Shown piece by piece: positions 26,444 to 30,174 of a stretch of 32,834 bases of DNA. Source of the stretch: a virus; the IMG/VR virus record IMGVR_UViG_3300039018_000161, positions 1 through 32,834 of that record. The stretch is one strand, 5' to 3'. The position numbers and the translations under genes are program-made. Position 1 is the first letter of the stretch. Each line of letters starts with the position of its first letter. The notes below the pieces were generated by a model. The model ran no database searches. It saw nothing but the letters and a program-made list of their open reading frames with translations, and was not told the DNA's origin.

Positions 26444-27319
26444 TTATGCCATTGCCTCTTCGCTTTCAGTCACTGCCGCCGCTTCACTGGTCGACAATGA
26501 TTTAATGTAATCCGCTGATTTTTGCGCCAGTGCTGCCGCTTTAAACACTGCCTTATTATCATTTTTGAGTACACGTAACCATGAAGCAATGTATCCGGCA
26601 TGGCGTAATTCGCCGTTGATTTGATATTCAGCGCATAAAAATGCTGCCGACAATTCCGCTATTAACTCTTCGGCGGCGTATGCCTCATTTCCAAATCGTC
26701 CGGATAAGTCACGGTTTAAGCGATTAGCAGCGCCGGACCAGTGACTTAACTCATGTAATAACGTCGCATAATAAGCGGCTTCACTATCAAAGTCGCCCTT
26801 ATTAGGCATTTGGATAAAATCATTTGATGGTGAGTAAAACGCCTTATCGCCGCCGTGTTTAATAATTGCGCCGGTATCAGTCGCCAGTGCCTCAAGCGCT
26901 GCAATGCTGTTAAATGGTTTTACCGTTACCACTGGCGGCGTATACCCGTCGATTTGGTCGGCATTAAATACACTGTATGATTTTAAAACGTAATGATAAT
27001 TTTTCTCTACGCCGCTTGCTGTAATCTTGCTGCCGCTTACAGGCGAATAAAATATTATAGTGGTTCCCTTAGTGCCTTTTCGTACTTGCCCGCCTAATTG
27101 TAGCCATTGCTTATACGTCGCCCATTGCGTTGATTTGAACCCGCCGGCAGCGGCGCTCATTGCTAGGATTAAAGTATTAATGCCATTGTAACCCTTGCCG
27201 CTTACGGCGTTATGATTTGCGCTGCTGCTGCCATTCCATTGTTTTACCCATGGCGTAGCGCCTTGCTCTAATTGCTTAATGATTTGGTCGGTTACTTGTT
27301 GATAAATTAATGCGCTCAT
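26444..27319 (-). CDS. ArdC-like anti-restriction protein (ArdcN + metallopeptidase)
   Basis: A 291-aa protein. The N-terminal ArdcN-type domain (residues 1-120) has QLEQGATPWVKQW, GYNGIN, WATYKQW and GxQVRKGTKGTxI. The C-terminal zinc metallopeptidase-like domain has LLHELSHWSGA, with H189-E190-x2-H193 as the HExxH motif, and EELIAE (E218/E222) as the likely third ligand. ArdC proteins bind ssDNA and protect incoming DNA from restriction. As an early, leftward gene next to the control region it fits a host-defence antagonist. The length matches the family. Confidence 0.87.
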   Translation of the reverse strand: MSALIYQQVTDQIIKQLEQGATPWVKQWNGSSSANHNAVSGKGYNGINTLILAMSAAAGGFKSTQWATYKQWLQLGGQVRKGTKGTTIIFYSPVSGSKITASGVEKNYHYVLKSYSVFNADQIDGYTPPVVTVKPFNSIAALEALATDTGAIIKHGGDKAFYSPSNDFIQMPNKGDFDSEAAYYATLLHELSHWSGAANRLNRDLSGRFGNEAYAAEELIAELSAAFLCAEYQINGELRHAGYIASWLRVLKNDNKAVFKAAALAQKSADYIKSLSTSEAAAVTESEEAMA

Positions 27320-27365: not shown

Positions 27366-27524
27366 TTAAATGCCTAAGCGATGCCTTGTTTTTACTAATT
27401 TAGTAATTCTAAGTTTACAAGCCGCAATTGAGCGGCACTGTATTTTTTGATTGTACTTAGTATCTAGAATAAAGTACTTGTTTAAATCATTGTCGAATAC
27501 TATTTTAAATTGTTTATAAATCAT
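27366..27524 (-). CDS. 52-aa basic protein, first leftward gene
   Basis: ATG 27524 behind AAGGGA eight bases upstream. The product is 52 aa, Lys/Arg-rich, especially in its C-terminal half (CKLRITKLVKTRHRLGI), with two Cys. It is the first gene to the left of the divergent control region. Possible DNA-binding or host-takeover peptide, with no family recognised. Confidence 0.5.
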   Translation of the reverse strand: MIYKQFKIVFDNDLNKYFILDTKYNQKIQCRSIAACKLRITKLVKTRHRLGI

Positions 27525-27663: not shown

Positions 27664-27715
27664 TGCACTATAATGGTGCAATGGCATAGCGCTATAATGG
27701 CACTATAATGGTGCA
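27664..27715. repeat. CTATAATGG repeats in GCAC...GTGC palindromes
   Basis: CTATAATGG occurs at 27668, 27692 and 27703. The first and third are centred in TGCAC/GTGCA-type inverted repeats and share the 16-mer GCACTATAATGGTGCA exactly. No -35 boxes were found at the right distance on either strand. Confidence 0.65.
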
Positions 27716-27740
27716 TCATCGCCCTACACACTTCCTATTT

Positions 27741-27863
27741 CACAATGTGGAACAGTCCAATACAGTTTCACAATGTGATACAGTCCAGTATAGATTTCAT
27801 CATGTGGTATAGGTCTGTATCATTCCACATAGTGGTATAGACCTATATAGATTTCACAATGTG
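27741..27863. repeat. Five-copy iteron-like palindrome array, 28/29-bp period
   Basis: Units begin at 27741, 27769, 27798, 27826 and 27855: spacings 28, 29, 28, 29. Cores are CACAATGTG (three times; copies 2 and 5 are the perfect TCACAATGTGA), CATCATGTG and CACATAGTG. Core-flanking sequence is also repeated (ACAGTCCA in units 1-2, GTGGTATAG in units 3-4). TATAGGTCT (27808) and AGACCTATA (27839) form an inverted pair around unit 4. Confidence 0.8.
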
Positions 27864-27867
27864 ATAC

Positions 27868-27903
27868 TGTTGTGCTAATACAACACTGTTGCTTAATAAC
27901 AAC
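27868..27903. repeat. Two adjacent hairpin-forming repeats
   Basis: TGTTGT-GCTAAT-ACAACA (27868-27885) and GTTG-CTTAATAA-CAAC (27888-27903) are related dyads directly following the iteron-like array. Confidence 0.5.
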
Positions 27904-27919
27904 GCTGTAAAGTGACATA

Positions 27920-27931
27920 GGGGGGAGGGGG
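27920..27931 (+). other. G-rich tract G6AG5
   Basis: An uninterrupted purine tract of eleven G and one A, followed by a GTTGTTGTTG stretch. Unusual in this AT-leaning genome. It could mark a strand-switch, primer or origin feature. Confidence 0.5.
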
Positions 27932-28183: not shown

Positions 28184-28212
28184 TTGACAAAACCTCGAAA
28201 GTATGCTACACT
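28184..28212 (+). promoter_or_regulatory. Strong sigma70 promoter for packaging operon
   Basis: TTGACA (28184-28189), 17-bp spacer, TACACT (28207-28212). It gives a leader of about 235 bases before terS. Confidence 0.75.
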
Positions 28213-28321: not shown

Positions 28322-28457
28322 TCTTAGTTGATAGCGAACTTCTTAGTCTTACGACAGCACTCTATAGTATATAGGGTGTCTCTTAAAAAATTAGTAATTT
28401 GTCGCAGTAAAATGCAAAAGCAGTTTAATGTGTCTTCCTATAAGGATAAAAGACTTG

Positions 28458-28928
28458 ATGTCAGAAATAGAAAAACAATTAGAATCTGCGCTACCGGAAG
28501 GTGCTGTTGTCGAGAAGAAGGTGCGTCCGAAGATTAAAAGACGTGAAGTAGTAAATGGTAAACCAAAGTTAGGTCGTCCAACAAAGGCGGCTATCGCCAA
28601 GAAGAAGAATCCCGGCATCGTGGGTAGACCACCCGGCGATGCAGCAAGGATTGCAGAATTTAAAGCAAGGTTGTTAGCCACTGCTGGCGACACTGTGATT
28701 ACCAAGATTATTGAGACTGCCCTTGCGGACGGACACCCCGCCCAAGGAGCGATGCTCAAGTTCTGTGGCGAGAGGTTACTGCCGCTGTCGAGCTTTGAAG
28801 CCAAGAGTGGTGGCAGTGCTCCACAGATTAGTATTAACATTACTGGTATCAACAGCCCCAGTATCGAAGCATCTGAAGTAATTGAGAATGATGTCACTGA
28901 CGTAGTTATCAGGGACGTAGATGAGTGA
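28458..28928 (+). CDS. terS: Terminase small subunit
   Basis: 156 aa from ATG 28458, chosen because AAGGA lies upstream (TTG 28455 is also possible); the ATG at 28428 has no RBS. The N-terminal basic region has two GRP motifs (KLGRPTKAA and VGRPPGDAA), AT-hook-like. A helical core follows (FKARLLATAGDTVITKIIET, then AMLKFCGERLLP). TerS recognises the packaging site and regulates TerL. It overlaps terL by 8 bases, the usual order. Identification rests on this context and on the basic DNA-binding region. Confidence 0.75.
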   Translation: MSEIEKQLESALPEGAVVEKKVRPKIKRREVVNGKPKLGRPTKAAIAKKKNPGIVGRPPGDAARIAEFKARLLATAGDTVITKIIETALADGHPAQGAMLKFCGERLLPLSSFEAKSGGSAPQISINITGINSPSIEASEVIENDVTDVVIRDVDE

Positions 28929-30174
28929 ACTAAACTTTCAACTGTTGCGATGGCAACAAGAAGTGTTTAAAGACTCCACTCGCTTTAAGGTCATTGCTGC
29001 TGGTCGTCGTTGTGGTAAGTCACGACTCTCTGCAGTAACCCTACTGATTGAAGGGCTTAATTGCCCTGAAGGTTCTAGCGTAATGTACGTTGCACCAACG
29101 CTCGGACAAGCAAGAACCATTATGTGGGACTTGTTGATGGACTTAGGCAGACCCGTTATTAAATCTGCTCACATCAACAACTTAGAGATTACTTTGGTGA
29201 ACGGCAGGAAAATCCTCATTCGAGGCGCTGACAACCAAGACTCACTTCGTGGTGTGTCCTTGTCGTATTTGGTAATGGACGAAGTAGCATTTATTAAGGC
29301 AGAGATTTGGGAGCGAGTGCTTCGAGCTGCTTTGTCGGATAAGAAGGGTAGAGCCATGTTTATTTCTACTCCTTCAGGTCGTAACCACTTCTATGAGTGG
29401 TATCAGTTAGGACAGTCGGGTTCAGACGAGGATTGGAAGTCGTGGCACTTTACCACTGCGGACAATGAAACGATTGACCCAAAAGAGATTGAGGCTGCAA
29501 AGCGAACATTAAGTTCCTTTGCGTTTAACCAAGAGTATTTGTCTTCCTTCAACAACGCTGGTTCAGGTTTATTTAAAGAAGAGTGGATTAAGTTCGGTGA
29601 AGAGCCTCAGAACGGTTCATGGTACATTGCGGTAGACTGCGCTGGATTTGAAGAAGTTGGAAAGAAGCAAACCAACAAGCGATTAGATAAAACAGCAATA
29701 GCCTGTGTCAAAGTAGATACTGATAACACATGGTACGTTGATAAGATTGAAACTGGTAGATGGTCTACTGAAGACACTGCCATGAAAATCTTAAACAACA
29801 TTAAAGAGTATGAACCCACTGCAGTAGGGATTGAGCGTGGGATTGCAAAGCAAGCGATTATGACTCCACTCATGAACGCTATGCGAAGAATGAACTGCTA
29901 TGCGCACATTGAAGAATTGACGCACGGCAACAAAAAGAAAGTGGATAGGGTTACTTGGGCTTTGCAAGGTAACTTTGAACATGGTAGGGTTGTTCTCAAC
30001 GCTGAAGGTGACTTTGACCTTTTCGTTGATGAACTCTTAATGTTCCCTACGCAAGGGGTGCATGACGATACAGTGGATGCGTTAGCGTATGTCCACCAGT
30101 TAGTAAGACCTTCTTTCGATGCCGATGACGGTGGCGATGAGTGGGAAACTTTAGATGTAATTTCTGGCTATTAG
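28921..30174 (+). CDS. terL: Terminase large subunit
   Basis: A 417-aa protein. ATPase: Walker A-like GRRCGKS (residues 28-34), Walker B YLVMDE (D120, E121), and the coupling motif ISTPSG (148-153). RNase H-like nuclease: D239 (IAVDCAG), E305 (VGIERG) and D382/D383 (HDDTVDALAY). All catalytic residues are present. It packages DNA into procapsids with ATP hydrolysis and cuts the concatemer. It belongs to the Terminase_6/Terminase_6C-like group of short TerLs. Confidence 0.95.
   Translation: MSELNFQLLRWQQEVFKDSTRFKVIAAGRRCGKSRLSAVTLLIEGLNCPEGSSVMYVAPTLGQARTIMWDLLMDLGRPVIKSAHINNLEITLVNGRKILIRGADNQDSLRGVSLSYLVMDEVAFIKAEIWERVLRAALSDKKGRAMFISTPSGRNHFYEWYQLGQSGSDEDWKSWHFTTADNETIDPKEIEAAKRTLSSFAFNQEYLSSFNNAGSGLFKEEWIKFGEEPQNGSWYIAVDCAGFEEVGKKQTNKRLDKTAIACVKVDTDNTWYVDKIETGRWSTEDTAMKILNNIKEYEPTAVGIERGIAKQAIMTPLMNAMRRMNCYAHIEELTHGNKKKVDRVTWALQGNFEHGRVVLNAEGDFDLFVDELLMFPTQGVHDDTVDALAYVHQLVRPSFDADDGGDEWETLDVISGY

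Follow-up and report, generated by a model that had tools for sequence, protein, structure and literature searches.

A regular array of five palindromic dyads lies in non-coding DNA upstream of the terminase genes in the window, by which we mean the whole 32.8-kb virus record analyzed here, and it occupies a slot that holds other dyads in some close relatives and, across this phage family, is rich in consensus sites for host DNA-binding proteins. We give about even chances to the reading that the array comprises operators for a dimeric, sequence-specific host regulator, with the IclR family the likeliest source, and represents one form of an exchangeable host-protein-site cassette that would gate transcription. 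The array itself is a confirmed observation, while the interpretation that the first-pass annotation of this DNA had placed on it is partly supported; the interest lies more in the slot than in its five dyads.

The dyads are of the type TTYCAYNNTRTGRWA and start at positions 27738, 27766, 27795, 27823, and 27852, giving spacings of 28, 29, 28, and 29 bp. Unit 1 (27738-27752, TTTCACAATGTGGAA) shares the core CACAATGTG with units 2 (27766-27780) and 5 (27852-27866), both of which read TTTCACAATGTGATA; the imperfect units 3 (27795-27809, TTTCATCATGTGGTA) and 4 (27823-27837, TTCCACATAGTGGTA) have the cores CATCATGTG and CACATAGTG, respectively. All dyads in this report, like the left boundary block described below, are given without strand. 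The first-pass annotation had described five palindromes at this alternating spacing, two perfect copies of TCACAATGTGA, and a regularity unlikely to arise by chance, and each of these statements was borne out. Exactly two perfect copies were found (units 2 and 5), and the five-unit periodic score of 119 was the best in the 903-bp intergenic stretch, compared with a mean of 62.3 (sd 3.2) and a maximum of 75 in 400 dinucleotide shuffles and a maximum of 77 in the rest of the window. Since there is nothing rare about the nine-base core by itself (17 matches with at most one mismatch vs 10 expected), the significance of the array rests on its spacing and conserved flanks. Weaker linker dyads of the TATAG..CTATA type were also visible between 27778 and 27847 (ATACAGTCCAGTAT, 27778-27791; TATAGGTCTGTA, 27808-27819; TATAGACCTATA, 27836-27847), and these were kept, with changes, in four relatives (L008, L012, L013, and L074).

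The array sits where gene direction switches, with genes running leftward to the left of ~27.5 kb and rightward to the right of 28.4 kb. Earlier described as 0.9 kb of non-coding DNA, the region has that length if a 52-aa ORF (27366-27524) and the TerS ORF (starting at 28428 or 28458) are taken as its bounds. The probable small terminase subunit gene, terS (28428-28928, + strand, start possibly 28458), was assigned by its position before the large terminase subunit gene, terL (28921-30174, + strand), and is without a family match. A sigma-70-like promoter directed toward terS, TTGACA-17-TACACT, lies on the + strand at 28184-28212, and a similar promoter is visible in relatives. In addition to the large terminase, the window encodes a family-A DNA polymerase, a primase-helicase, a single-stranded DNA-binding protein, endonuclease VII, and an SU10-type adaptor; no RNA polymerase was found among the ORFs that were scanned against protein families. 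Beside the array, the first leftward gene of any size (26444-27319) encodes an ArdC-like anti-restriction protein (PF08401 plus a metallopeptidase domain). The kind of samples from which these phages come suggests that they are freshwater phages, and they are probably lytic, with no recognized integrase among the scanned ORFs.

Since the intergenic region had no DNA similarity match in the phage collection, relatives were taken from IMG/VR, whose entries are metagenome assemblies. Three TerL searches and two DNA-pattern searches yielded 136 non-redundant upstream regions, that of the window included; a TerL search of 85,000 genomes for a host identified none. In five relatives with TerL proteins 93-96% identical (L008, L012, L013, L074, and L091), the dyads stay at 28/29 bp while their bases drift, producing the changed cores CATAATGTG, CATATTGTG, and CACATTGTG. 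That dyads and spacing are held despite this drift makes a multi-dimer protein-binding array a well-supported reading of the sequence. The alignment with relatives that had been proposed as a check upheld the spacing, but not the cores, and the closest relatives lack the array altogether, including L098 (TerL 98% identical) and L088 (97%). Some close relatives with TerL identities of 92-98% hold different dyads in the same slot.

We found no gene with which the array covaries. For each of five array phages tested, the nearest TerS-TerL neighbor, as judged by pairwise identity, was without the array, so covariation with the terminase was rejected and the array must move independently of the genes to its right. 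Because the genes to the left differ among array phages, it moves independently of those as well. ArdC, gp88, and the 52-aa ORF, all of which lie beside the array in the window, are missing from the other array-bearing phages, which have different small ORFs at this position and share no special neighboring gene. The 52-aa protein and an 83-aa protein had been suggested as phage-encoded binders, a proposal that finds no support here: the 52-aa ORF had no match in any other fetched locus, and the 83-aa protein is also present in many array-less phages.

The slot is delimited by two conserved blocks, GGTGCATCATCGCC and the G-run GGGGGGAGGGGG, and lies ~0.5-0.7 kb upstream of terS. In the window, the left block reads GGTGCATCATCGCCC (27710-27724) and was recognized in 61 of 136 relatives, while the G-run forms the right cassette boundary (27920-27931, + strand) and was found in 124 of 136. 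Among close relatives, exchange affects the stretch between GGTGCATCATCGCC..ACAC at the left and ACATAGGGGGGAGGGGG at the right. Occurrence of the G-run reaches down to a TerL identity of ~65%, making it the most widely conserved non-coding element seen here; across the family it is of the type GGGGGGAGGGG(G). It resembles mitochondrial CSB II. A reading of the G-run as KOPS (GGGNAGGG) was rejected, several relatives having GGGGGGTGGGG, and a search of Rfam gave no match. The 420-bp regions to the left of the G-run in 114 phages fell into 101 clusters. One relative (L075) has a tight 22-bp tandem repeat, TTGTGTCTGTGTTGTGTCTGTG, in place of dyads in its 138-bp cassette; near the very start of another contig (L204) stands GCTCTTCCGATCT, left over from an Illumina adapter in the IMG/VR assembly.

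Within the 420 bp to the left of the G-run, 93 of 114 phages had at least one of seven motifs (DnaA, NtrC, LexA, Fur, SlmA, NrdR, and parS, the site of ParB), for a total of 207 sites and 57 homotypic multiples, all of them consensus matches only. The same motifs were found in only 4 phages in the 420 bp to the right of the G-run, in none in TerL coding sequence, and in 2.5 on average in shuffled sequences; the list of motifs was partly picked after viewing the sequences, which permuted controls and the left/right contrast offset in part only. For Fur, LexA, DnaA, CRP, and NrdR, we searched with general consensus sequences. Published consensus sequences were used for NtrC (TGCACCAnnnTGGTGCA; PMC8743547), chromosomal parS (TGTTTCACGTGAAACA; PMC5450999), and SlmA (GTGAGTACTCAC; PMC3116907). 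Relative to a coding control 4 times longer than the region, the upstream region was enriched for strict NtrC sites (32 vs 0), parS (6 vs 0), DnaA (72 vs 14), LexA (43 vs 3), Fur (17 vs 0), NrdR (15 vs 2), SlmA (23 vs 11), and CRP (11 vs 1). Allowing two mismatches for NtrC inflated its count with coding matches (82 vs 44). When the motif arms were permuted, the observed count was equaled in none of 120 trials for parS, DnaA, LexA, NtrC, and NrdR, in one for Fur and for SlmA, and in four for CRP. Many other regulators on the same motif list, among them FNR, ArgR, FadR, PdhR, GalR, Cra, and alphaproteobacterial LexA, gave zero sites. Host-regulator consensus sites are concentrated in one intergenic region here, as they are in CtrA-type regions.

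The window has two such sites next to its array: a dyad matching the NtrC consensus of PMC8743547 (TGCACTATAATGGTGCA, 27664-27680) and a second NtrC-like dyad with one mismatch (GGCACTATAATGGTGCA, 27699-27715). On the other side of the array lies TGTTGTGCTAATACAACA (27868-27885), a TGTTGT-N6-ACAACA dyad common to many relatives, which occurs in the window and 28 other phages, with 34 copies in the region and 3 outside it. This and other unassigned dyads are flagged as probable host-factor sites. DnaA boxes were present in 34 of 136 relatives and often form tandem runs with 11-bp steps and a single orientation; a conserved dyad, TCTTATATAAGA, was seen between DnaA boxes in distant relatives (23 phages; cassettes of L226, L255, L171, L247, L201, and L211). 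CRP-type sites, most of which are on the right-hand side of the G-run and close to the terS promoter, were treated apart: TGTGAN6TCACA occurs ~195-254 bp right of the G-run in seven relatives (L170, L207, L211, L247, L249, L252, and L245) and 710-720 bp upstream of terL in two (L236 and L255). Their placement on the terS side in distant relatives suggests a CRP-regulated rightward promoter.

The window dyads may be sites for a regulator of the IclR family, for one motif group of which the operator is WTTYCRYW3RYGRAAW (PMC8222616). The dyad TTTCACAATGTGRAA fits this palindrome. Unit 1, at 27738, is the sole perfect match in the window to the group's core consensus, TTYCRYWWWRYGRAA; three units have one mismatch and unit 3 has two, and all four occurrences with at most one mismatch in the 32.8 kb fall in the array. 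An idealized dyad, TTYCACANTGTGRAA, had 22 sites in 399 Burkholderiales genomes, compared with 1 for the reversed control, and no match in a second order (57 genomes). Three of these sites precede IclR-type genes that neighbor a phosphoketolase/transketolase-like gene (L338-L340; a Pfam check covered the IclR gene in L338, and those in L339 and L340 were read by eye), two lie between aceA (isocitrate lyase) and aceB (malate synthase), two are upstream of RuBisCO, and several of the remainder are inside ORFs.

Other observations count against this assignment. The exact 16-mer TTTCACAATGTGATAC gave only scattered matches in 85,000 genomes; those in Aquabacterium and Burkholderiales, at the overlap between the end of a sigma-factor-like gene and the next start, were judged coincidental. 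Tandem sites in the IclR family usually have centers 18-22 bp apart, an arrangement that is common but not universal (PMC8222616), whereas the array centers are 28-29 bp apart, or ~2.7 helical turns, so that neighboring dimers would not lie on one face of the helix. Descent of the window dyad from parS with a 3-bp insert was also considered and was rejected on spacing. Since the IclR assignment was arrived at after the motif was known, it is a lead rather than a test, and we infer that the binder in the window is probably IclR-like.

If host proteins do bind the slot, a gate on transcription would be the likely effect. The cassette appears to sit in a control region between leftward (early) and rightward (structural) genes, where regulator dimers present in the cell at the time of entry would bind the sites, and the resulting nucleoprotein block would repress or gate divergent transcription. 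The infection programme would then come to depend on the regulator's state, a dependence of the kind put forward for the CtrA sites of alphaproteobacterial phages and the Spo0A sites of phi29. Exchange of the cassette by recombination would switch which host signal is read. Two results count against an operator for a host regulator in its purely transcriptional form: the position of an early promoter relative to the dyads could not be fixed with confidence, and a transcription regulator leaves the parS and SlmA sites unexplained, their usual proteins not being classical regulators. The contig may also lack ~5 kb of the phage genome, which could encode a binder. A broader proposal, which we hold tentatively, is that this freshwater phage family has a rapidly exchanged "landing pad" beside the G-run that is filled from the sites of many host proteins, apparently those of DnaA, ParB, SlmA, LexA, Fur, NtrC, NrdR, and IclR-type regulators, where the need would be for some host DNA-binding protein to sit there, whichever it is, for control, protection, or replication of the incoming DNA.

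Of the two functions that the first-pass annotation had offered for a multi-dimer array, origin iterons and a master operator, the latter fits better, because a fixed phage initiator would be expected to retain its iterons, while the closest relatives here are array-less and have other dyads in the slot, many of which match consensus sites of known host regulators. The region could nonetheless act as a replication origin in which the DNA between the conserved block and the G-run is remodeled or melted by DnaA or another host protein, and the G-run, in the manner of mitochondrial CSB II, promotes priming from an R-loop or G-quadruplex. We consider this doubtful, although the tandem DnaA boxes, the retention of the G-run beyond that of other non-coding elements, and the phage's own family-A DNA polymerase and primase-helicase are consistent with it. 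The cumulative GC-skew minimum, a proposed check for the replication start, does fall here (26.5-28 kb), but it is confounded by the switch in gene direction at the same place. Moreover, most relatives are without a perfect DnaA box and have sites for NtrC, Fur, LexA, SlmA, or other non-initiators instead, whereas an initiator-origin pair should stay constant between phages with 91% identity in their terminase genes. Conserved repeats with a cognate initiator gene mark an iteron origin, and here the closest relatives lack the array and no gene is linked to it. Less credible still is an immunity-like set of operators for a repressor or initiator encoded by the phage, which we regard as very improbable. 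Regular dyad arrays are typical of phage repressor systems, the dyad spacing is held among array-bearing phages, and part of the phage genome that may be missing from the contig (~5 kb) could encode a binder. However, the gene content beside the array is completely different among array-bearing phages, no repressor, helix-turn-helix, or integrase match was found among the ORFs scanned, the window and seven relatives have no IclR-type helix-turn-helix gene, and neighboring slots match consensus sites of host proteins.

Two further explanations keep the host proteins but dispense with the gate. As a decoy or sponge, the arrays would titrate host regulators as phage copies build up, altering host expression or freeing host functions. 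The 57 homotypic multiples, the choice of proteins with strong loss phenotypes (LexA, Fur, DnaA, and SlmA), and the failure to find a fixed distance to a promoter would all suit such a role; we nevertheless judge it improbable, since 2-5 sites per genome would titrate little early in infection, and neither the one-sided placement beside the G-run nor the clustering in one slot would be needed. It is more improbable again that the region is a terminus or packaging site, with the G-run at or near a cut upstream of terS and bound host proteins shielding or ratcheting the first-entering DNA end. Its location upstream of terS and terL, the sharp one-sidedness at the G-run, and two contigs that start at the G-run argue for this idea. 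However, contig ends do not clearly accumulate at the G-run, full-length contigs break at many places, and homopolymers and strain variation also break assemblies; nor do TerS and the array covary, as would be expected of a cos or pac array.

That phages borrow a single host regulator, such as CtrA, Spo0A, or LexA, is known. Here, different members of one phage family fill a fixed slot with consensus sites for no fewer than seven cellular DNA-binding proteins. If binding proves true, the slot would be a natural catalogue of the host proteins exploited by uncultured freshwater phages, hosts and host states could be inferred from phage non-coding DNA, and whether lytic phages time infection by host physiology could be tested directly.

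Regularly spaced protein-binding repeats in non-coding DNA are a hallmark of plasmid and phage iteron origins, and the window array resembles these in its regularity and location, as do some relatives in their DnaA boxes; unlike iterons, however, its repeats are not kept within the family, have no linked initiator gene, and give way mostly to sites for other host proteins. The dyads resemble IclR operators of the WTTYCRYW3RYGRAAW type (PMC8222616), and the idealized dyad precedes an IclR-type gene in Burkholderiales, but here there are five of them, the spacing is 28/29 bp rather than the 18-22 bp of tandem sites, and the setting is a phage. In phi29 (Spo0A) and in temperate phages (LexA), control regions likewise contain host regulator sites that link the phage programme to the state of the host, as summarized in PMC9437464; those systems involve single regulators in known phage-host pairs, and the summary given there does not describe an exchangeable multi-regulator cassette. 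The closest likeness is to the Alphaproteobacteria phages in which large intergenic regions are dense in CtrA sites; experiments there demonstrated binding and regulation, and "lytic deferment" was put forward (PMC9437464). Whereas those phages use one experimentally established regulator, the slot described here, as read from sequence, presents various host-protein sites across close relatives and homotypic dyad arrays beside a conserved G-run.
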